A stretch of DNA of 64,000 nt from Oleomonas cavernae (GTDB taxonomy: Bacteria > Pseudomonadota > Alphaproteobacteria > Zavarziniales > Zavarziniaceae). Shown here in pieces: positions 54,753 through 63,860 of this stretch (positions are counted from its first letter, which is position 1; each line of letters begins with the position of its first letter). The stretch is taken from NCBI RefSeq assembly GCF_003590945.1, contig NZ_QYUK01000011.1:648001-712000 (forward strand), given 5' to 3'. Under the pieces are notes generated by a model. It did not search any database. It saw nothing but the letters and a program-made list of their open reading frames with translations, and was not told the origin of the DNA. A program made the position numbers and the translations under genes.

Positions 54753-54829
54753 GGCCCCGTAGCTCAGCCGGATAGAGCACCCGCCTTCTAAGCGGGATGT
54801 CGCAGGTTCGAGTCCTGCCGGGGTCGCCA
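54753..54829 (+). tRNA. tRNA-Arg (anticodon TCT), integration site of the element
   Basis: Acceptor GGCCCCG with CGGGGTC (one G-T pair), D-arm GCTCAGCCGGATAGAGC, anticodon arm CCCGCCTTCTAAGCGGG with TCT, T-arm GCAGGTTCGAGTCCTGC, encoded CCA. Its last 45 bases are repeated at 63816-63860, so the tRNA was kept intact when the element inserted. Confidence 0.97.
54785..54829 (+). repeat. attL: 45-bp direct repeat inside tRNA-Arg
   Basis: Begins CTTCTAAGCGGGATGTCGCA and ends at the CCA. Identical over 45 bp to 63816-63860. It runs from the anticodon loop to the 3' end, the usual crossover segment for tyrosine integrases. Confidence 0.95.
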
Positions 54830-54875
54830 TGTTTTCAACGGGTTAGGGAAGCGGGCGAGGGGCGGGAAAGCGGAA

Positions 54876-54894
54876 ATCTACGGTATATCTACGG
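54876..54894 (+). promoter_or_regulatory. Arm-type integrase site, left end
   Basis: ATCTACGG twice (54876-54883 and 54887-54894), about 50 bp inside attL. A matching pair lies at 63665-63684 by the right end. Confidence 0.6.
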
Positions 54895-55311
54895 AAACTA
54901 GAGTTGCTTGCCGCGATGCAGGCCACCGGCGAGTTTGCCCCCGAGACCGCGGCCGCCTGGGCACGCTCGTTTGATTTCCCTTTGAATTTCACTTGGCGAA
55001 ATCAACGTTTGATCGGGCCGGATCGTCGAAATTGACGCCAGCGAGGCGGGCGCGGATATTCTCACGGCGGGGGCCGGCGACGGGCCGGGTTGTGCCAACG
55101 GATCGTCCGTGGCGGTCTGCGCCTTCCCATTTCGGGCGTCGCCGGCCTCTTCGATTTCTGCCCGGCCTTGAGATCATCCCACTTCAGCCGCCGGATCGCG
55201 CTTGGCGCCATGGCCGAACCGCCAGCCGTCAGCCGTCGAGGGCATCGACCCAGCATTGACGCCACTAGCCGGCAGGGGGAACAATCCTGGCGGGCAATGA
55301 TGGGGGCGGTA
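54895..55311. other. Gene-free left end of the element
   Basis: No convincing gene. Short ORFs here are Arg/Pro-rich and have no ribosome binding site. Confidence 0.5.
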
Positions 55312-55641
55312 ATGAGGTTTGGTTTTGTGGCCGTGATGGTGGCCGGATTGGCTGGCTGCGCCGGCTCAGAAATGCACGCAACCGTCATGGAGCGATCCGG
55401 CGACGTCCATGTTTTCGAGGCGGACCGCCCTGACCACGACTACAAGTTCTACATCAAGAACGTCGCGGACATAGGATTCGACGGCGACAATGCTGCGGAC
55501 CGCAAGGTGCTGATCGACAAATATCTGGCGGGTGAATGCCGCTCGACGAAGATCGTGCAGGAAACCTACCTTTCTCTTGGAAAATGGGCGACCGAATCAC
55601 CTAAGGGGCAGTGGATCGTTCGTGTCAGGTGCGAGCGGTGA
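55312..55641 (+). CDS. Small putative lipoprotein in the element
   Basis: 109 residues: signal and lipobox MRFGFVAVMVAGLAGC, then a mature part with VHVFEADRPDHDYKFYIKNV and two further Cys (ECRSTKIVQE, RVRCER). No family recognised. Upstream in-frame ATGs at 55297 and 55300 exist; the one at 55312 gives the best signal peptide and has GGGGGCGG before it. It is one of few plus-strand genes of the element, so it may be cargo. Confidence 0.65.
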   Translation: MRFGFVAVMVAGLAGCAGSEMHATVMERSGDVHVFEADRPDHDYKFYIKNVADIGFDGDNAADRKVLIDKYLAGECRSTKIVQETYLSLGKWATESPKGQWIVRVRCER

Positions 55642-55798
55642 TCATGGTGAGATGGCCATCCCGATCCGGCTCGCATGGCCGTCGCCTTGGATCACACCCT
55701 TGGCAGGCAGAACCGCACACCCGATCGGCGCCGCGTGGAAGGCCGTCACTGCCGCGAACTGCAATCGGTTGCAAACAAAAAGGACGCCTGGAAGCGGC

Positions 55799-56278
55799 CT
55801 ATTGAACGACTTGAGTAGTAGGTGAATGTCGCTCGAAGAAGTCCCGGATGTTCGGGTTCGAGTATGCCAGGACGTATATCACGACCACCGCAAGGCCGAT
55901 CACCGCGCCGGCCATGGCATTGACGCCTACGGTACGCCAGAAGCCACCTTGACGCTTCACCTCTTGAACAATGGCCTCGCCGCGGGCTTCTTGCTTGATA
56001 CTCTCGGTATTCTGCTCAAGCAATCGGTCCGCAAACTGGAATAGAGTCTCACGGGCTCGGTCCCGAAACATTGAAATCTGCATGTCCGTGTAGCTCTGAA
56101 CATGCTCATCGACTTGCTGCGGAGAGGGATATAAGGAATTTCGCTCGAGCCGGTCCGTAATCCAGGCGCGCTTGTTTTGCTTGTAAAGGGCGTAAGCAAC
56201 GAGCCCGGTTAAGTCTGTATCATCGCCATCGGTCAACCGTTCGTACATTCGGTTGTATGGGGGATCGGTATCCCCCAT
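55799..56278 (-). CDS. Tail-anchored membrane protein, hypothetical
   Basis: 159 residues: a charged helical N-terminal part (DLTGLVAYALYKQNKRAWIT, then DEHVQSYTDMQISMFRDRAR) and one hydrophobic segment near the end (AMAGAVIGLAVVVIYVLAYS). Its base composition is less GC-rich than the surroundings. It starts right after the stop of the next upstream gene (TAAATG), so the two are coupled. Function unknown. Confidence 0.72.
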   Translation of the reverse strand: MGDTDPPYNRMYERLTDGDDTDLTGLVAYALYKQNKRAWITDRLERNSLYPSPQQVDEHVQSYTDMQISMFRDRARETLFQFADRLLEQNTESIKQEARGEAIVQEVKRQGGFWRTVGVNAMAGAVIGLAVVVIYVLAYSNPNIRDFFERHSPTTQVVQ

Positions 56279-56485
56279 TTATTTTCTCGACGAGGCCAGC
56301 ACTTCGCCCGCACTCTTAACCGCTGCGTCGAAGTGCTCCCTGTTTACAATTACGTAGCGCGAACCGTCAGGCATCCGCCGCTCAACGACCGTCGGCTGCG
56401 ACTTAGCCGAAGTCACGACCGTGGTTTCCTTGTGGCGCGTTGACACGGTGCCGTGGGTAACGGTGGTGGTTGGCTTCGTGGTCAT
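56279..56485 (-). CDS. Small protein coupled to the tail-anchored protein
   Basis: 68 residues, Thr/Val-rich N-terminus (TTTVTHGTVSTRHKETTVVT) and a C-terminal RYVIVNREHFDAAVKSAGEV. Its stop codon abuts the next start. The pair size and coupling recall toxin-antitoxin or anti-phage pairs, but nothing in the sequence proves this. Confidence 0.6.
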   Translation of the reverse strand: MTTKPTTTVTHGTVSTRHKETTVVTSAKSQPTVVERRMPDGSRYVIVNREHFDAAVKSAGEVLASSRK

Positions 56486-57270
56486 GTTGAGTCTTTCTGT
56501 CTAAGCATATGTTGTGGCAACCACACGCTAAGTCCAGCGCTTAGTGTATAGCACAGTGATATACGTTGTATGTCAGGTGCGAACGCATCGCTGACGCATA
56601 CCGTCAACGCGTTGACGACATCATGAACGCAGCGGATCGCGTCCTCAGAAGGACCGACCGGCTCAGCCGAGGTTTGCGCGAGAATCTGTGATCCGCGGCT
56701 GCTGTTGCTCTGCCCACTCTCTAGGCGGCGAGAATGTTCCGGACTTAGGTGTTGGCGCCAGCCAACCCATCCAGATAATCCCCCCAAGCCTGCATCACCT
56801 TCCCGCGCTGGTCACTGCCGACCCTTTGATTTTCACGAAATCAAACGGCATCCCATTGTGACACTTTCAGGCACGAGCCCCCGAAGCGTCGCGAGTGTCG
56901 CAGCCCCGCTTCCTTCACCCCGGCAGTTCGCACCCCATTGCGAAATCGATCGCCGGTGGTCATGCCCAGCCAGGGGGCGGCTTGCGCGTCGGTTCGCACC
57001 AGGTTCGCAGGCGGTTCGGCTGCGGCCCTTGGTTTTTCCACCGTTCGGGCTTTCTGGTCGAAATTTCCTACCGCAGAAAAAAATGTGTGGATGCTGGAGA
57101 CGCGGGTTCAGATGCCGATCGCGAAATTGAGACCGATCCGCCCCCCCGGGGTGCTGGCCCCGTTGCCGGCACGATAGTTCGGGGCGCGAACCTTTTTGTA
57201 CGGGTTATGCGCAAGTCGGTTGGGACGCGGGTACGTAGGCAAAGCCGATCTTGGGCCTACCTGCCCCCCG
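56486..57270. other. Gene-free stretch of the element
   Basis: About 785 bp without a convincing gene on either strand. The part near 56500-56580 is AT-rich and may hold the promoter for the minus-strand pair. A short hairpin GTTCG-N5-CGAAC followed by CTTTTT lies at about 57176-57196 on the plus strand. Confidence 0.55.
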
Positions 57271-57627
57271 TCATCCTACGCGGTACCAGGCGGCGGGATC
57301 GGGCACCGAGTCAAGCATCGGGACATGCTGGGTGTAGGTCTCGCCGGCCGGGCCGTAGCCGAACAGCAGCGCCCCGTTTCCATCGTCATCCGGCACTCGT
57401 TCGATTTGTTCGATCACCGGCCCATGAAGCCCGGCGTCGCTTGGTGCTGCAAGGCCTACGCGCATCGAGGCCAGCGCCTCGACCAGCACCGCATCGAAAT
57501 GGTCCACCACGGTGACGCGATCGGCTTCCGAGGCGCCGTCACGCTTGAGCCTGGCGACGAGCGAAGCCAGGGCATCGCGCGCGGTTCGGGCGATGCGGTC
57601 AGCCGCGAATTTCGATTTCGGGCTCAT
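57271..57627 (-). CDS. Hypothetical protein at the end of the capsid gene series
   Basis: 118 residues: FAADRIARTARDALASLVAR and VTVVDHFDAVLVEALASMRV form amphipathic helices; the C-terminal half has GNGALLFGYGPAGETYTQHV. Its start overlaps the upstream stop (ATGA). Probably a virion or assembly accessory protein by position only. Confidence 0.62.
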   Translation of the reverse strand: MSPKSKFAADRIARTARDALASLVARLKRDGASEADRVTVVDHFDAVLVEALASMRVGLAAPSDAGLHGPVIEQIERVPDDDGNGALLFGYGPAGETYTQHVPMLDSVPDPAAWYRVG

Positions 57628-57923
57628 GCCTTCCCGCCCTTCGCGGAGAGGTGCCACAGCGAGGCGGACATGCCGGGCACGACGCCCTCGGGAACGTCAG
57701 CCAACGCGGTCCACATGCTGCCCTGGTGCGTGACTACGCTGCCCCGCTTGTAGGGTGAGGCGCGTTGGTAGGTCCCGAGATATTTTACGCCGCCTTGTTC
57801 GACGAGATCGAGCCTGGCCCGGATCGCGTCGATCTGCTTGGCGAAGCCGTCGAATGACCGATCGACGTAGCCCTTGATCGCGTCAAAGCCCTGGTCGAAT
57901 GCCTCTTGCAGGTCCATCGTCAT
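57624..57923 (-). CDS. Small phage-type protein with a carbohydrate-binding-like tail
   Basis: 99 residues. An N-terminal helical part (AFDQGFDAIKGYVDRSFDGF) and a C-terminal module YLGTYQRASPYKRGSVVTHQ, GSMWTALADVPEGVVPG, then LWHLSAKGGKA. That pattern (Y..G..Y..G..V...G..W.A) is the chitin/carbohydrate-binding-like repeat common in phage structural proteins. Overlaps the neighbours on both sides. Confidence 0.7.
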   Translation of the reverse strand: MTMDLQEAFDQGFDAIKGYVDRSFDGFAKQIDAIRARLDLVEQGGVKYLGTYQRASPYKRGSVVTHQGSMWTALADVPEGVVPGMSASLWHLSAKGGKA

Positions 57924-58120
57924 CGCGTTGCCCCTTCATGCTTGCCGGCGAGCTTCTCTGCCACGCGGGTCGGCGATATGTCTTCCAGGGCAGCCAACCG
58001 CGCCCGGATCGCGGTCAGCGCGGCCCCGATCTGGTCGGCCGTGTCCGACAGGATGCCCAGGTCCACCGGCAGCCTCGCTGCCTCCGCGCCGATCTTGGAT
58101 CGTGTAGTTTCGGTCGTCAT
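57920..58120 (-). CDS. Small hypothetical protein between capsid and decoration-like genes
   Basis: 66 residues, predicted helical: LPVDLGILSDTADQIGAALT and AIRARLAALEDISPTRVAEK. It starts 12 bases after the capsid-like gene. Possibly a scaffold or decoration factor; no family recognised. Confidence 0.6.
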   Translation of the reverse strand: MTTETTRSKIGAEAARLPVDLGILSDTADQIGAALTAIRARLAALEDISPTRVAEKLAGKHEGATR

Positions 58121-58132
58121 CGTCCTGCCCCC

Positions 58133-59125
58133 TCAGCTCACCAGCTCGTCGCCCCAGGCGACGGCGGTCAGTTCGGCGATGGCGTTCGATCGCGTCCGGG
58201 CGGCGCAGAAGGGCAGCAGGGCGCGCACGGCAACCGAATTGGTCTGGAACATCGAGACCATGGCCGCGGCACCGACCACGGGGTTGTCGGCCATTTGGAC
58301 GTCGGCGTTTCGGCTGGAGTCGATTTCGACGGGCAGGATCGAGCCGGCGATAGCCTTGGCGTCGACCAGGCGCAGGATGCCCGGGGGAACAGCGACGCTC
58401 GAAACCAGGGGGCAGTTCAGCAACTCGCCACCGTCCGGCGCGACGTTGAGGCCGATTTCGGACAGCGTCGAAATCCTGCGCACCACGTCCGGCGCGCCGA
58501 CCCAGATCGGGCTTGAGCCGCCGGCGATGCCTACCTGGTCCAGCAGCCAGCGGAGTTCACGCCGCCAGCCGGGTTCGTCGATCGCGGTCGAGGGGGTCGA
58601 GGGGGTCGCGCTGTCGATCGTCAGGCCGAAAAAGGCATCATCCGCAGCGAGAGCGACAGCCGCCTTCAATTCGCTGGAAAGCAAGTTCGAGGCGCCGGCG
58701 GAAATATCGAGGGCCAATTCCTCGGAAACGACCAGGATCACGCCGGCAGTCGTCGGCACCAGGGCATTTCGATCGATCCCCAGTTTCGAGACGGGGATCG
58801 GCAAGCCGTTGCCTGCGATGCCGGCCGTGAGGGTCGACGCCACGATGCCGACCGCCTGGCGGGGCGCGACTTTGTGCATCCCGGATCCGGCGATACGGGC
58901 CAGGGCGCTTTGTTCCTGAATCGATCCGATCCAGGCGGCGCTGGCCAAGTGCCATTCGGCGTCATCGGCGAGCTGCGCCCCAACGGCCGACTTGGCGAGG
59001 ATGCGGCCGGCGCGGGGAGATACGCGGGTGCCTTCTGCAAGCGCGTGCGCTGTGGTGAACGATGCGGCGCCGGCCGCGATCATCTTGACGATTTGGCCGA
59101 AATCACCGGCTGGGGATTGTTCCAT
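58133..59125 (-). CDS. HK97-type major capsid-like protein
   Basis: 330 residues. The middle and end follow the HK97 capsid pattern: GLPIPVSKLGIDRNALVPTT, VSEELALDISAGASNLLSSE, the LVSSVAVPPG strand, and the ending MFQTNSVAVRALLPFCAART, then AIAELTAVAWG. There is no N-terminal protease or long delta domain. No portal, protease or terminase gene is adjacent, which is unusual for a capsid gene. Confidence 0.72.
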   Translation of the reverse strand: MEQSPAGDFGQIVKMIAAGAASFTTAHALAEGTRVSPRAGRILAKSAVGAQLADDAEWHLASAAWIGSIQEQSALARIAGSGMHKVAPRQAVGIVASTLTAGIAGNGLPIPVSKLGIDRNALVPTTAGVILVVSEELALDISAGASNLLSSELKAAVALAADDAFFGLTIDSATPSTPSTAIDEPGWRRELRWLLDQVGIAGGSSPIWVGAPDVVRRISTLSEIGLNVAPDGGELLNCPLVSSVAVPPGILRLVDAKAIAGSILPVEIDSSRNADVQMADNPVVGAAAMVSMFQTNSVAVRALLPFCAARTRSNAIAELTAVAWGDELVS

Positions 59126-59162
59126 AGTGCTGGTCTCCTGTTGCGGGTCGACATTGCCCGGC

Positions 59163-59198
59163 GAAACGCGAGTGAGAAATTACCACCTCTCGCGTTTC
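59163..59198. promoter_or_regulatory. Inverted repeat before the capsid-like gene
   Basis: GAAACGCGAG (59163-59172) and CTCGCGTTTC (59189-59198) are perfect 10-bp arms around 16 bp. The right arm sits in CTCTCGCGT (59187-59195), the same nine bases as in the palindrome before the AlpA-like gene. Likely an operator or regulatory hairpin for the capsid genes. Confidence 0.6.
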
Positions 59199-59490
59199 AC
59201 TCGCGGCGTGCGCGACGGGAGAGGTAATGGCGCAGGGCGGCGGTGTCGATTTCCCATCGGCCTCGGTTCCGTCGGCCTAGCGATTTGTTTCTTGCCAACC
59301 AGCGAACGGTGTCGGCCGGCAGGTCGAACCTTTCAGCGGCGGCGCGCGCGTCGATCCAGATTGCGGCGGCGCCTTCCTCGGTGTCGCGCGGCTCGCCACA
59401 GGGCAGCCCGTCCACCGGCAAGGCCAGGACCAGCCGGCGCAGCTCGTCCAGCGCGGCGAGAAGATCGGCACGAGTGACAGGCAGGGTCAT
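59197..59490 (-). CDS. Small protein with an excisionase-type helix-turn-helix
   Basis: 97 residues. The C-terminal half reads WIDARAAAERFDLPADTVRW, then LARNKSLGRRNRGRWEIDTA, a winged-helix DNA-binding pattern of the Xis/MerR kind. It overlaps the replication gene upstream by ATGA. Confidence 0.68.
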   Translation of the reverse strand: MTLPVTRADLLAALDELRRLVLALPVDGLPCGEPRDTEEGAAAIWIDARAAAERFDLPADTVRWLARNKSLGRRNRGRWEIDTAALRHYLSRRARRE

Positions 59491-60482
59491 CGCCCGGGCC
59501 GCGCAAACTCTCCGGCGCCGGCATCCGGTCCGACACCACCGGCCGCGCCGCCACATGCCTCTGAGGACACTGCATAAGCCATGGCCTGGCCCCAATTGGC
59601 CGGCTTCGTGCCGTCCTCGGTTCCAAGGCCCGGGGGCAGATGATCAAGCGCTCCCGACCGCACCGCGACGACGGCCGCGGGCAGATCGCGTTCAGACAGA
59701 TGGATCACCGCCAGCCTTTGCGCATCGGTGACCCCTTCAAGCGCCACCAGGCGGGCAAACACCGCGGCGCGCCGACATGCCAGTGCTGCCCAGGGCTCCA
59801 GCGCTTCGAGGTTTCTGACAAGATCTAAAGCCTGCGAAAAGCCGATGTGCCGCGAATGGTAGACGAAGGCCTTGCAGGTCTCGACCTCTTCCAGGGTCGG
59901 CGCCTTCTCCCCCAAAGCCTCGACAAGCTGCCGCTGCAAGTCTCGGATCCGATCGCGCTCTTGCGCCTCGGCCAATAGGCGCTGCCGTTCGCGGTCGGCT
60001 TGCGCATTGATCGCATCTCGGATTTTCCGCAGCTCGTACCAGTCGGTGAGCCGGCGGGCGCTCAAGCGATCGGCAACCTCGACCACCTCGGCTATTGAGG
60101 GAGGAAACTTCACGGTTCGGCGGATCTCGTGAACGGTGTCGTAGACGACACGCGATGGATACCGCTCGAATTCCTCGGCCAGGGCCGCCAGGTAACCTTT
60201 GACGTTTTCAGGGCCGCGCTGCGGATAGGCCGCAAGCAGGTGTGTGGCCGCCACCAGGGCATATTTCGGGTGGCAGACCTTTCTTGCTTCGTCGACCTCG
60301 GCCAGCGCCGCCTCGACCATCTCTTGGGGTGGCAGCGTGGTCTCATTGTCGAGGTAGCGACCGAAGATCCGGCGCAGCTTGTCGGTCGTCGGTGTCGGCA
60401 CTATCGGCGGCGCCGGTAGCCGGCCGCTGCCTTCCCGCCGGGCGTCAAGATTGGCCACAACGGCCGGGGCCTGTCGAGTCAT
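59487..60482 (-). CDS. Replication accessory protein (helicase-loader-like), putative
   Basis: 331 residues. Parts: LRRIFGRYLDNETTLPPQEM, KYALVAATHLLAAYPQRGPE, then GYLAALAEEFERYPSRVVYD and RRTVKFPPSIAEVVEVADRL, followed by a coiled coil (ADRERQRLLAEAQERDRIRD). Such proteins follow lambda O-like genes in prophages and are thought to load the host helicase. Start at 60482 overlaps the O-like stop. Confidence 0.6.
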   Translation of the reverse strand: MTRQAPAVVANLDARREGSGRLPAPPIVPTPTTDKLRRIFGRYLDNETTLPPQEMVEAALAEVDEARKVCHPKYALVAATHLLAAYPQRGPENVKGYLAALAEEFERYPSRVVYDTVHEIRRTVKFPPSIAEVVEVADRLSARRLTDWYELRKIRDAINAQADRERQRLLAEAQERDRIRDLQRQLVEALGEKAPTLEEVETCKAFVYHSRHIGFSQALDLVRNLEALEPWAALACRRAAVFARLVALEGVTDAQRLAVIHLSERDLPAAVVAVRSGALDHLPPGLGTEDGTKPANWGQAMAYAVSSEACGGAAGGVGPDAGAGEFARPGR

Positions 60483-61357
60483 GAACCATTCCTTTCGCGG
60501 TCGTCGAGATCGGCAAAGAGCTCGCGGGCGGCGTCCATGACGCGGCTGCCGGTGGCATGGGCGAGGCGGGCTGGGGAAGAGGGGGGCATGTTTTGATCGC
60601 GCCAATGGCCGTCGCGGAGCCAATTTGCCGGGGCTTTGATAAATTGCGGTTCGCGGTCGGCCACCGCCTGGCCATAGGCCTTGGCGGCATCGATCAGGAT
60701 AGGGACAGTCGCCGCCTTGGACCGGATCAATTTCCAGAATTCGCGCTTGGCCCCTTCCTCGCCCGATTGGTTCGGGTAGGAGCTCCAGAATGCCAGGAAG
60801 GCATCATCAGACTTCGAGGGTGACGGCTCGATGATTTCAGCAGCCGGTTCGTAGATATCTCTACTAGGGGATTTAGATAGGTGACTTTGGGTGGCGCCAG
60901 CGCCACCTTTGAAGGTGGCGTGTACGCCACCTTTGGCACCTTCAAAGGTGGTCTGTACGTCACCTTTGGACCCCTCAAAGGTGGCGCTGGCGCCACTATT
61001 GGGATCGTCCAAAGGTGGCGCTGGCGCCACTATTGAGACGGCTTCGTCCGCACCGTAAAAGTCGGTTTTGTCGCCGCCCTTTTTCCAGTTTGGGTGGTAT
61101 TGCGTTCCACCCCCATGGCCTCTTTTAGTGACCTTGGCGAACCACTGCCCTGCTTCGAGGGAATTGACCGATCGGATGACGTTTCGGCGGTTTGCGCCAG
61201 TCCAGGTGGCGAGTTGATCGAGACTAGGCCAGGCATAGCCGCGGGTCTCATTGACGTGGTCGACAATGGCGAACGCCACCCTGCGATCGAGGGCGCTCAA
61301 GGACCGATCGCACATGATGGCCCGCACATAGCGCAGCACGTCGACCAGGGTGGCCAT
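60479..61357 (-). CDS. Lambda O-like replication initiator with internal repeats
   Basis: 292 residues. N-terminal winged helix: LSALDRRVAFAIVDHVNETR, GYAWPSLDQLATWTGANRRN and VIRSVNSLEAGQW. A repetitive linker (ATFEGSKGDV, TTFEGAKGGV, ATFKGGAGA) is encoded by an iteron-like DNA array. The C-terminal part (DDAFLAFWSSYPNQSGEEGA, AAKAYGQAVADREPQFIKAP and LRDGHWRDQ) is the usual helicase-contact domain. The origin is probably inside the gene, as in lambda. Confidence 0.78.
   Translation of the reverse strand: MATLVDVLRYVRAIMCDRSLSALDRRVAFAIVDHVNETRGYAWPSLDQLATWTGANRRNVIRSVNSLEAGQWFAKVTKRGHGGGTQYHPNWKKGGDKTDFYGADEAVSIVAPAPPLDDPNSGASATFEGSKGDVQTTFEGAKGGVHATFKGGAGATQSHLSKSPSRDIYEPAAEIIEPSPSKSDDAFLAFWSSYPNQSGEEGAKREFWKLIRSKAATVPILIDAAKAYGQAVADREPQFIKAPANWLRDGHWRDQNMPPSSPARLAHATGSRVMDAARELFADLDDRERNGS
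60891..61035. repeat. Iteron-like array, candidate replication origin of the element
   Basis: CAAAGGTGGCGCTGGCGCCA, continuing CTATTG, occurs at 60976-61001 and 61010-61035. An inverted copy of its first 21 bases is at 60891-60911. Between them lie more CACCTTTG and CAAAGGTGG units (60902-60984). All are inside the O-like gene. Confidence 0.75.
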
Positions 61358-61539
61358 CAGTCGTGGCCCCCGTGCCGGCTGGCCCCTTCCATTGCCAAGC
61401 CTTCTGCGACGGTCGAGGTTCGACCTTGATTGCCGCGCGGGTGGCGCTTATTCTTCGGGTCGATCTGCCAGCCAGCGCGATCAGCATCCCGAAACCCGCT
61501 CACCTTGCCCGAGGTGGCGGGTTTCTCATTGAGCGCCAT
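61357..61539 (-). CDS. Small hypothetical protein
   Basis: 60 residues, basic (KVSGFRDADRAGWQIDPKNK). It overlaps the O-like start by ATGA and follows the AlpA-like gene by 3 bases. No family recognised. Confidence 0.5.
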   Translation of the reverse strand: MALNEKPATSGKVSGFRDADRAGWQIDPKNKRHPRGNQGRTSTVAEGLAMEGASRHGGHD

Positions 61540-61542
61540 GCG

Positions 61543-61746
61543 TTACGCGGCCTTGCCGTTACGGGCGGCGGCGGCACCATCGATGAAGGCGATCAGGTCG
61601 GCCACCCGCCAGCGGTTTGTGGCGGGGCCGATCTTCAGCGGGCGGGGCAGGCGGCCGGCATTGATGCCGCGCCACAGGCTCGACCGGTGGATGCCCCCCA
61701 GGATCTGGCAGGCGCCGGCTTCGTCGGTCAATTCAGGATGGATCAT
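61543..61746 (-). CDS. AlpA-family phage regulator / excisionase-like protein
   Basis: 67 residues: LTDEAGACQILGGIHRSSLW, then RGINAGRLPRPLKIGPATNR and WRVADLIAFID. This is the AlpA helix-turn-helix, which switches integrase or early gene expression in satellites and prophages such as P4-like elements. A perfect palindrome lies just upstream. Confidence 0.85.
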   Translation of the reverse strand: MIHPELTDEAGACQILGGIHRSSLWRGINAGRLPRPLKIGPATNRWRVADLIAFIDGAAAARNGKAA

Positions 61747-61753
61747 TATTGCC

Positions 61754-61778
61754 TCTCGCGTCGATTGGTGACGCGAGA
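61754..61778. promoter_or_regulatory. Perfect palindrome before the AlpA-like gene
   Basis: TCTCGCGTC (61754-61762) and GACGCGAGA (61770-61778) with a 7-bp spacer, only 8 bp before the start codon. The nine bases CTCTCGCGT are shared with the inverted repeat before the capsid-like gene. Confidence 0.7.
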
Positions 61779-61834
61779 AGGTTCAGGCAATCCGTCGACG
61801 ATTTATTTCCGGCAGTTTCGGGAATTTGGCGGAA

Positions 61835-62365
61835 TTATCTAAGTAGTTGATTTTTAACGCTATAATATAATTCTTTCGCGACGGAAGGTGACACGCAGCA
61901 TACTTTCCCAACCAGCTCGAACAGGCTTTGGTCGACCGGTGGCGGTGGATCGGCCCGGAGTGCCAATTTCACCGCGCGATAGACCTCGATCCGCTTGCGG
62001 CGGCGTTCACGAAGTCTCCCCACGTGAGTCCCCTTCGCGACGGGCTTCCCAAAGATGTCATCCCACGAACCGGCCTCAAATCGGCGCGCCACCGAGTCAT
62101 AGGCTTCAATGAACGCGACAGCTAGCCACTCTGGTGTTACAAGCCGCGCGCCTGCGCAGATGCGCATCGCCCGCAGCAATTCGGCTTTGTCCCCCTCGCG
62201 GATTTTGTTTTTCAGTTCCTCAAGCTCGTGTAGCCATACATCAAGCATCAGCCATTGATCCCGCACCGCATCGCTCGCCGGTTCAGTGTTCGACTGGTTC
62301 ACCCACCAATCGTCAACCGCTCGCCGGGCCTCTGCCACAGTCAAAAACCGCGCCGGCCCGATCAT
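61835..62365 (-). CDS. Hypothetical protein of the integrase operon
   Basis: 176 residues: FLTVAEARRAVDDWWVNQSN, then EGDKAELLRAMRICAGARLV, WLAVAFIEAYDSVARRFEAG and a basic GRLRERRRKRIEVYRAVKLA. The 3' end is strikingly AT-rich. Its start overlaps the integrase stop by ATGA. No family recognised. Confidence 0.65.
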   Translation of the reverse strand: MIGPARFLTVAEARRAVDDWWVNQSNTEPASDAVRDQWLMLDVWLHELEELKNKIREGDKAELLRAMRICAGARLVTPEWLAVAFIEAYDSVARRFEAGSWDDIFGKPVAKGTHVGRLRERRRKRIEVYRAVKLALRADPPPPVDQSLFELVGKVCCVSPSVAKELYYSVKNQLLR

Positions 62366-63635
62366 GCCGCGGTTCCCCGCCCAATCGGCACCACCTCGCC
62401 GGCGCCGGCTATGATTCCGGCCAGCCTCTCCGCCCAAAGGTCCAGCGCCTCGCGCTTTTCCCGGTCGTAGGTGTAACGTGCGTATACCCGCGACGTGATT
62501 GTCGCCTTGGTCGCGCTGACGTGATTCAGCACATGGCCGATCACAAACGGGCTGATGCCAGCCTCTTCCATGAGCGTCGCGGCGGTCCGGCGCAGGTCGT
62601 GGGCCGTCCAGTGGGGAATGCCCAGCACCGTTGTCACCTTGCCGCTGGTAACGGCTGCCCGCCAGATTGCGACGGTGGCCCCATGCCGGGCCATCGCGGA
62701 TTCACCGCCCGGCGCCGGGAATACCCACGGCCCGTCTTCGCGTCCCTTCCGTGCAGCCAGGGCCTTCACGTCGGCGAGCTGCGCCTGGATGATCTCGACG
62801 GCCATCGCGGACAGGGGCACCGTATGGTCGCGCCCGTTCTTCGTCCGGGGGCCGGCAAGGCCCAAAGCGCCCGGTCAAAGTCGATTTCCTCGACCGTCAT
62901 GCCGGCGACTTCCCCCACCCGCTGCGCCGTGATCAGGCATAGGCGGACTACGCGCCGGGTCGATTCCCGCATGTTCGCATCGGGCAGGGCCTTCCACATG
63001 GTGCGAATCTCGTCGGCGGTCAGCACGCGCTCGCGCTCGACGGCTTCGGTGGGCATCCGCATGCCCTCCGCTATGTTCGCATCCAGGTCGCCCCGGCCGC
63101 GCGCCCACCTGACCATGGCCTTCACGTCCTTCAAAACGTGGTTGGCCTCGATCCCGGCGCCACGATCCTTCACATCGTCGACGCAGCGGGTGATGTCTCG
63201 CCGATGGAAGTCGGCAAGCTTCACCGTGCCGATCAGGGCCACGACGTTCTTGCGCAAGCGGCGGGCAATCTCGTCGCTCGACCGCTTGGTCGCGGCATGG
63301 CGGGCAAGATAATTCTCGACCAGATCCGCGACCGTTTGCGAGGCCGCCAGAGCCTTCTTTTCCGCAATGGGGTCCGCACCCTCGCCGATCTCGCCGCGGG
63401 CCTCCCGTGCCCTCTTACGAGCGGCGGCGAGCGTCATTTCGGGATATCGACCGAGCTTCAGCCAGGCGCGTTTGCCATCCCCTGGTTTCGTGTAGACCTG
63501 GAAAAAAGTCTTGGTCCCACCAGGCGAAATGCGAAGGCACAACCCGGCCACCAGGGTGTCAAAATGGTCAACCTGTTTCCCAACCGCGGGCTTCACCGTC
63601 TGGCAAAACCGATCCGTCAATTCAGCCTTTGGCAT
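62362..63635 (-). CDS. Tyrosine-type integrase, frameshifted
   Basis: Site-specific recombinase of about 425 residues after repair. N-terminal DUF4102 arm-binding domain (LVAGLCLRISPGGTKTFFQV, LGRYPEMTLAAARKRAREAR), core-binding domain, and catalytic residues in LITAQRVGEVAGM (Arg), TAHDLRRTAATLMEEAG (His, Arg), VIGHVLNH (His) and a Tyr in ARYTYDREKREAL. The frame breaks at the G5 run 62847-62851; one added base joins WALPAP to RTKNGRDHTVPLS. GGGAGGCGCG before 63635 sets the start. It recombines at tRNA-Arg. Confidence 0.9.
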
Positions 63636-63664
63636 CGCGCCTCCCGACATCCCGCCTAAAGAAA

Positions 63665-63684
63665 ATCTACGGAAATATCTACGC
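63665..63684 (+). promoter_or_regulatory. Arm-type integrase site, right end
   Basis: ATCTACGG (63665-63672) and ATCTACGC (63677-63684), in the same orientation as the pair at 54876-54894, between the integrase gene and attR. Confidence 0.6.
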
Positions 63685-63815
63685 CAGTACGCGCGCTTTG
63701 TCGATATGCCTTGCGACGTGTGGAAACGCCACGGGACAAATTATTCAGCTATTACAGCAGCTTGTGCTGTATCGCTGTGTCGCACGCAGTCGCGCCAAAT
63801 ATCGATGAAAACAGA

Positions 63816-63860
63816 CTTCTAAGCGGGATGTCGCAGGTTCGAGTCCTGCCGGGGTCGCCA
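63816..63860 (+). repeat. attR: 45-bp copy of the tRNA-Arg 3' end
   Basis: Identical to 54785-54829. It is a partial tRNA without the 5' half, so it is not a functional tRNA gene. Confidence 0.95.

Follow-up and report, generated by a model that had tools for sequence, protein, structure and literature searches.

A PICI-like element of Oleomonas cavernae with a trimmed HK97-fold capsid gene and without recognised packaging or tail genes

Results and Discussion

A small element with a trimmed capsid gene

The window analyzed here is the whole stretch of 64,000 nucleotides from Oleomonas cavernae (contig NZ_QYUK01000011.1, positions 648,001 to 712,000). Near its right end lies an element of ~9 kb (54785-63860), with its gene set on the minus strand, that carries an HK97-fold capsid gene trimmed at its N terminus. 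With moderate confidence, we read it as a satellite resembling the phage-inducible chromosomal islands (PICIs), whose capsid homologue would remodel the head of a helper phage, as the Ccm protein of SaPIbov5 does; that the element is a satellite at all is rated higher. We call it PICI-like and do not file it as a PICI because no primase was found, an O-like initiator with internal repeats being present instead.

The ends are given by a 45-bp perfect direct match between the 3' end of a tRNA-Arg gene and positions 63816 to 63860, the two copies lying 9031 bp apart:
54753-54829, plus strand: tRNA-Arg (TCT), the integration target, whose last 45 bases (54785-54829) form the left attachment (att) site, attL
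63816-63860, plus strand: attR, which repeats the last 45 bases of the tRNA-Arg gene without a mismatch, at the far end of the element

The earlier note, made from the sequence alone, had placed an element at 57271 to 63635; the element is real, and the tRNA-Arg repeat extends it to 54785-63860. Inward from the right end, the gene order is split integrase, p176, AlpA-like gene, a 60-aa frame, initiator, p331, p95, capsid, p66, p99, and p128 (all described below). As in Gram-negative PICIs, the integrase is oriented inward and att repeats bound a discrete element. Four-base overlaps at initiator/p331, p66/p99, and p99/p128 (the p128 start at 57627 being a chosen start) fit an operon, and promoter and terminator scans gave results near chance level. 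In all five same-genus genomes compared, the tRNA-Arg gene adjoins the same left-hand gene. No element was recognised beyond the tRNA-Arg in these five, with scattered short tblastx matches in three and one stretch stopping ~550 bases past the tRNA; the right flank is not clearly syntenic in them, and the exact empty site was not demonstrated by this comparison.

The capsid protein is encoded as follows:
58133-59125, minus strand: HK97-fold capsid protein (phrog_617, 2.8e-9)

It matches phrog_617, a major head protein family, while the Pfam Phage_capsid match (0.088) is below the cut-off. The top Foldseek matches of an AlphaFold2 model built from a 20-sequence alignment (pLDDT, the local confidence score, 81.2; pTM, the global score, 0.79) are tailed-phage capsid proteins, including those of Bxb1 (1.4e-11) and HK97 (3.1e-9), and VIA-align gave a Z of 13.7 to HK97 (root mean square deviation [rmsd] 3.9, 223 residues) and 12.6 to the cf-PICI EcCI2. 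The model confirms an HK97 fold, and the HK97-like capsid call of the earlier note withstood the structure comparison that the note had asked for. Encapsulins match the model too (Z up to ~13), and the fold would not separate a virus shell protein from an encapsulin; the sequence relatives do so. Ccm was absent among the 50 matches listed by Foldseek and among the 50 listed by VIA-align, from which we draw no inference. Among the capsid relatives found (the best 80 of 182 from a viral-contig scan and nine from a genome scan), most are fusions of 640 to 700 aa or proteins of ~480 aa. The homologous phage capsid domain reaches 46% identity over ~94 residues near its end in viral contigs and 40% in Rhizobium phage RHph_X2_26. 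Phages with such protease-capsid fusions of the phrog_617 type differ from the element in that the capsid gene includes the protease and an N-terminal domain (its coordinates in RHph_X2_26 give 656 aa) and stands beside terminase, portal, and tail genes.

None of these neighbors was recognised in the element. When the window proteins were scanned against Pfam and PHROGs (p159 and a plus-strand frame of 183 aa in a separate scan; p66 against PHROGs only; the 60-aa frame and p68 against neither), no significant match to the large terminase subunit (TerL), portal, protease, or tail proteins was obtained, and the TerL, protease, and portal sequences of related phages, used as BLAST queries, matched nothing in the element. 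The terminase, portal, protease, and tail genes of a prophage are thus missing from the proteins scanned, as the earlier note had claimed, and so is the set of portal, protease, connectors, TerL, and small terminase (TerS) that capsid-forming PICIs (cfPICIs) carry with their capsid gene. With the same BLAST queries, which detect related phages only, 155 of 159 loci (some of them overlapping) matched TerL, protease, or portal; the remaining four were two pieces of the window element and the loci L085 and L094, and a recount without a query of the carbohydrate-binding module (CBM) type gave the same numbers.

The same make-up in other genomes

A search for the same gene set in other genomes, also proposed in the earlier note, recovered nine further elements of the same make-up (L085, L094, L181 to L185, L187, and L188) and two that were viewed less closely (L203 and L204). 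They share a trimmed capsid gene without TerL, portal, or protease, and their replication modules vary. A single-sequence capsid search of 191 related genomes matched the window's own copy alone. A three-row capsid profile had matches in 7 of the 385 genomes sampled from the host's class and in 10 of the 398 sampled from its phylum (overlapping samples that each include the host's own genome and are larger than, and partly different from, the set of 191). Eight profile matches with shorter frames led to stand-alone capsid genes in L181 to L185, L187, and L188. A viral scan with the L187 capsid protein added L203 (80% identity) and L204 (79%), where genes were called without profile searches; scans with the L184 and L185 proteins returned two phage-like contigs and nothing, respectively.

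Four other loci were rejected. L186 was set aside, since its 452-aa capsid protein keeps the N-terminal domain and it has two integrases; its element (L186:8492-19058) is bounded by a 46-bp tRNA-Thr repeat, with the second integrase just outside. The other three had at first resembled stand-alone capsid genes. L035 proved to be a phage, its locus also containing TerL, protease, and portal, and L004 has a portal downstream of its capsid gene and a protease match on the opposite strand. In L024, a 79-kb viral contig, an integrase abuts a capsid fragment next to a portal (L024:8550-10771), an arrangement that suggests insertion of an element into the capsid gene, as in helper-embedded PICIs.

L085 (Rhodanobacter sp. 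C01, Gammaproteobacteria) has an integrase, a D5/DUF5906 helicase, and a small pre-capsid gene; its capsid protein is 332 aa long, and it also has a small terminase (Terminase_4, 6.3e-6) and a 37-bp att repeat of a tRNA-Pro. L094, a 9.3-kb viral contig, holds an integrase, an AlpA-like gene, two replication proteins that are read as a primase and an AAA helicase, a small gene, a capsid gene, and a small terminase; its capsid protein and small terminase are 72% and 75% identical to those of L085. The capsid protein closest to the window's is that of L187 (33% over 305 residues), where the initiator is also weakly similar (2e-5 in a single comparison) and p95 matches at 0.003. One genome (G419) carries both L184 and L187. 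Repeats of 24 to 48 bp derived from tRNA genes bound L085, L182, L184, and L188, four of the nine elements (L094 and L185 were not in this test); L183 had none that was convincing (15 nt at a tRNA 5' end), and L181 and L187 had only 14 nt. Where both ends could be placed, the relatives span 9 to 11 kb; the larger prophages that the earlier note had said would count against its reading were not found among them. An integrase is present in the elements apart from L185, whose contig is short, and L204, to the extent that its genes were recognised.

A small gene lies directly 5' of the capsid gene in the window (p95) and in all nine closely viewed relatives. Its product has a Pfam match to helix-turn-helix (HTH) or MerR families at an E value of ≤0.01 in 7 of these 10 cases, above the curated cut-off in L184 and L188, and the versions of L085, L094, and L185 are linked to one another by BLAST. 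L203 has one as well (61% identical to that of L187), and none was recognised in L204. Kin of p99 occur downstream of the capsid gene in L184 and L185 and, weakly, in L187. Replication genes are less uniform: besides the D5/DUF5906 helicase of L085, an O-like initiator is found in the window and in L187, a 123-aa protein resembling part of the initiator in L182, and DNA primase signals in L181 and L184; RepB_primase and AAA_25 are among the Pfam families of the ten-element set, with the owner proteins not specified.

Strict TerL, protease, and portal queries had no matches at 1e-2 in the 11 other satellite elements; in L182, a match of 52 aa (0.001) falls beyond the ends of the element, and the matches of L183 and L185 to a query named X26_portalB are to a CBM-type protein that adjoins the phage portal. 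In a Pfam search of 102 other proteins of the ten elements (integrases, capsid proteins, and tape-measure proteins left out), 25 of the 29 matched families were displayed, and none of these was a TerL, portal, protease, or tail family; two trypsin-like peptidase matches in this set are presumably cargo. A small terminase without the large subunit was found in L085, L094, and L181 (phrog_83, 3.3e-7 in the last), L183 has a weak small-terminase signal (0.014) together with an HNH endonuclease (5.5e-22), and the small HTH gene of L188 has a Nu1-like signal (2e-5) below the cut-off. Tape-measure genes were identified at L185:5811-8300 and L188:10736-12790 (phrog_2854, 6.3e-285; phrog_9483, 5.8e-54), so the statement that tail genes are absent fails for these two. 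Besides the tape-measure gene, the trimmed capsid gene is the one virion gene recognised in L188, and L185 has it together with a CBM fiber-like gene.

Cargo of L204 (6449-7855 and 8783-9406) is 95.6% identical to that of L187 and 93.3% to that of L184, while the capsid genes differ by at least 20%, a pattern that points to recent exchange of cargo between elements.

Uniform trimming and purifying selection

To locate the start of the trimmed proteins in their phage homologues, a profile of nine satellite capsid proteins was used (the distant L188 was left out of both profile and tree; start codons were chosen by us). The profile starts at residue 93 to 133 (median 109) in 21 of 21 phage proteins shorter than 520 aa and at a median of residue 289 in 50 of 50 fusions of 600 to 720 aa. 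The window protein thus has no protease and is without about 108 N-terminal residues of its phage homologues. Among the 12 elements, the open frame upstream of the chosen starts has room for 5 to 51 extra codons (18 in the window); because 51 is the most that could be added, the missing part cannot be concealed there, and it is absent from all 12 satellite capsid genes. If model residue 64, which aligns with HK97 residue 126, is used to extrapolate to an HK97-like cleavage site, ~40 residues would precede that site in the window protein, compared with ~150 in its phage relatives.

Selection was measured on pairs of relatives, the window copy having no relative close enough. Ratios of nonsynonymous to synonymous substitution (dN/dS, NG86) for the capsid pairs among L187, L203, and L204 were 0.24, 0.22, and 0.21 (0.156/0.644, 0.195/0.871, and 0.200/0.964), and that of the L085-L094 pair was 0.15 (0.222/1.524, with a high dS); YN00 returned no value for two capsid pairs. 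These values indicate purifying selection on the capsid genes of those relatives that were close enough to compare. In the capsid tree, a supported branch has eight of the nine satellite proteins to one side, and the ninth, L183, sits with phage proteins. Two or more trimming events are therefore probable, the number of origins being unsure in a tree with many long branches for which the tool warns of false joins.

How the element may work

Known satellites provide the frame for our reading. According to the published accounts, 21 of 29 reference Gram-negative PICIs have a capsid gene (PMC10111431), and SaPIbov5 has Ccm; the earlier premise that capsid-bearing satellites usually also carry packaging genes does not fit these cases. 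Gram-negative PICIs such as EcCICFT073, PmCI172, and HE-PICI 11capE are described as elements of 10 to 20 kb with an inward integrase, AlpA, a replication zone, and a late zone mostly with a capsid gene, and some also carry a decoration protein or a small terminase (PMC6092414, PMC10111431). The window element shares the alpA gene near int (phrog_66, 9.1e-5) and a late zone with captured phage late genes, including a capsid gene. It differs from them in its O-like initiator with internal repeats, in having no primase that we could find, and in a trimmed capsid protein that comes from the protease-fused phrog_617 family and has no close sequence relatives among those found. PmCI172 is reported to form small capsids and to have a capsid homologue (PMC6092414). 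For the PICIs of Pasteurella and Enterococcus, the gene or mechanism behind small capsids is described as unknown (PMC12409344).

The nearest studied precedent is Ccm, a homologue of the phage capsid protein whose scaffold domain is reported to be 44 residues shorter and which cannot replace the phage protein; in the T=4 capsids, Ccm occupies the pentamers and the phage protein the hexamers (PMC5052747, PMC8569155). By the published description, Ccm and the window protein are alike in that each is encoded by a satellite, is homologous to a phage capsid protein, and has the HK97 fold, a scaffold domain shorter than in phage homologues (by alignment in the window protein), and no protease found. 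They differ in that SaPIbov5 is a Gram-positive PICI and in that 87 residues precede the cleavage site of Ccm, compared with ~40 by extrapolation in the window protein. The cfPICIs, which carry a whole head and packaging set, and MulchRoom/MiniFlayer are likewise small satellites with a capsid gene; they are reported to make their own portal, a protease or scaffold, and the two terminase subunits (PMC10690885), none of which was found in the window element.

In the preferred reading, infection by a helper phage or its induction would lead the element to excise and to replicate with its own initiator and the host helicase. The capsid protein would be made late and co-assemble with that of the helper, perhaps in pentamers, and this would shift the helper to a small head fitting ~9 kb. 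The helper would contribute the tail, portal, protease, and large terminase, along with its own capsid protein, which has the scaffold domain. Packaging specificity might come from the small terminase in some relatives, and in the window p95, p128, or a shared cos or pac site are candidates.

Several observations weigh against head remodeling by such a satellite. A primase, which would be expected of a Gram-negative PICI, was not found among the window proteins scanned against Pfam and PHROGs, and the integrase is split by a frame break, the sole sign of decay in this copy, so the copy may no longer excise by itself unless the break is a sequencing error. Trimming also exceeds the precedent, the scaffold domain being shortened in Ccm and almost absent in the window protein. 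In one model, PICI capsid genes were reported not to be required for transfer (PMC10111431), and remodeling may therefore not be general. Finally, no helper candidate was identified in the host genome. It has no PF03354 TerL match, and no fused phage capsid gene of the same family was found in the seven satellite-bearing genomes (up to five candidates per genome scored), so the helper may be an infecting phage. Matches to phrog_2 occur at three places in the host genome: a cluster resembling a gene transfer agent (GTA), with TerL, portal, and protease and the genome's only PF04860 portal (L159, G000:C8 near 311420-313732); a region whose frames resemble a Mu-like prophage by eye (L189, TerL match, G000:C8 near 600228); and a weak match (2.8e-4) without recognisable phage genes. 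We take the GTA-like cluster, together with the permuted tmRNA of a same-genus genome, as signs of an alphaproteobacterial host.

We also consider, more tentatively and with considerable doubt, that the elements form a class keeping only proteins of virion geometry, namely a shell protein trimmed in its scaffold region, accompanied by the HTH gene that precedes it and, in L185 and L188, by a tape-measure protein, combined with interchangeable replication modules, and that they would reprogram the head size of helpers and some tail lengths.

An unlikely alternative to remodeling is that the trimmed protein is a complete shell protein that forms a small capsid alone, without scaffold or protease, and docks on the portal, terminase, and tail of a helper. 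The core HK97 fold is complete in the model, encapsulins are among the structure matches, and the seven satellite-bearing genomes yielded no fused phage capsid gene of this family among up to five candidates scored in each. Encapsulins assemble without a scaffold. HK97-type capsids normally need the scaffold domain, which counts against a stand-alone shell. Ccm is reported to be unable to form capsids alone (PMC5052747, PMC8569155).

Somewhat less probable still is an anti-phage element, in which the capsid protein, joined by the tape-measure protein in L185 and L188, would poison the assembly of an invading phage and protect the host, transfer being secondary. Expression of Ccm alone was reported to lower the helper titer 1000- to 10000-fold (PMC5052747), and the two tape-measure proteins would suit such a role. 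Against it, the cassette sits in elements with replication genes and, save L185 and L204, an integrase, and PADLOC found no known defense families in the four window proteins scanned; such an effect would in any case be compatible with a head-remodeling satellite and does not exclude it.

The earlier note had left two possibilities, a minimal satellite pairing its own shell protein with helper functions and a decayed prophage. Nine further elements, and two viewed less closely, speak for the first. The second, in which a deletion removed the packaging and tail genes and left the early genes and the capsid gene, draws on the split integrase and the poorly coding look of the left 2.4 kb, and a random deletion is very unlikely given the recurrent make-up of 9- to 11-kb relatives with differing replication modules, the purifying selection on their capsid genes, the missing N-terminal part in 12 of 12, and an integrase that points inward, unlike those of prophages as described (PMC10111431).

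The wider interest lies in the role of capsid genes, which are common in Gram-negative PICIs. The 12 elements, with a capsid protein without the N-terminal part and protease, offer a natural series in which scaffold-domain length could be related to head size and to action in pentamers only. The tape-measure genes of L185 and L188 raise the question of satellites that alter tails; elongated PICIs are reported to capture up to 17 late genes (PMC10111431), and a tail gene in a satellite is therefore not new in itself. What appears to be new, as far as our searches go, is that a protease-fused capsid family is trimmed in the same way throughout, that a small HTH gene and a capsid gene are paired and joined to interchangeable replication modules, and that this pair occurs with a tape-measure gene in two relatives; among the titles and abstract openings of the open-access papers searched, we found no paper on scaffold-trimmed capsid genes of this phrog_617-type family in satellites.

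Other genes of the element

The remaining features are as follows:
62766-63650, minus strand: integrase, N-terminal part (arm-binding, core-binding, and start of the catalytic domain), ending at the frame break
62362-62865, minus strand: integrase, C-terminal catalytic part, in a different frame
61835-62365, minus strand: p176, overlapping the integrase end, with no significant Pfam or PHROGs family
61543-61746, minus strand: AlpA/excisionase-like HTH protein (phrog_66)
60479-61357, minus strand: O-like replication initiator (HTH_36, 4.8e-8; phrog_270, 1.8e-19)
60891-61035: candidate origin, consisting of five palindromic, iteron-like repeats that lie within the initiator gene
59487-60482, minus strand: p331, its start overlapping the initiator stop (Pfam G39P, 0.22, not significant)
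59197-59484, minus strand: p95, small HTH_17-like protein encoded immediately before the capsid gene (Pfam HTH_17 at 3.4e-4, short of the cut-off)
57920-58120, minus strand: p66, small protein, coiled-coil-like by eye, with no PHROG family
57624-57923, minus strand: p99, short helix plus CBM_5/12-like domain (CBM_5/12, 7.8e-4, below the cut-off)
57271-57627, minus strand: p128 (118 aa from the preferred start codon), predicted helical hairpin plus low-confidence tail (pLDDT 60)
56279-56485, minus strand: p68, cargo protein
55799-56278, minus strand: p159, cargo protein with a hydrophobic stretch

Pfam and PHROGs matches bear out the integrase, AlpA, and O-like replication genes named in the earlier note. 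The tyrosine integrase consists of two overlapping frames, with Arm-DNA-bind_3 at 9.3e-21 and Phage_integrase at 1.3e-6 and 2.2e-11 for the two pieces, and the AlpA-like protein also matches Pfam HTH_17 (0.0029) and Phage_AlpA (0.0058), each below the cut-off. In tblastn, the initiator matched 38 phage records, 21 of Arthrobacter and 11 of Gordonia phages, with 24 to 27% identity in the 15 listed ones. The iteron pattern, derived from the repeats themselves, has nine matches (five sites, both strands) compared with 0.48 expected; repeats inside the initiator gene are typical of an origin of the lambda type.

Downstream of the initiator, p331 is possibly a helicase loader, given its weak signals (the G39P loader/inhibitor family, phrog_9804 at 5e-5, and a tail-chaperone PHROG at 0.35); a search for its kin gave five stretches in viral contigs, none confirmed, and its own copy alone in the 191 related genomes. 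The p99 protein is similar to the end of a fiber-like protein encoded after the portal in related phages, with weak matches to the C-terminal CBM parts of PHROGs annotated as portal (0.0065) and tail fiber (0.0069), and p128, which folded alone with low confidence, has a weak match to a small-terminase PHROG (0.01). Apart from p159, p68, and the gene of a putative lipoprotein, the left 2.4 kb (54830-57270) looks poor in coding sequence. The lipoprotein frame (55303-55641, plus strand), for which PHROGs and PADLOC gave no family, has a lipoprotein-like signal peptide by eye and may be cargo.

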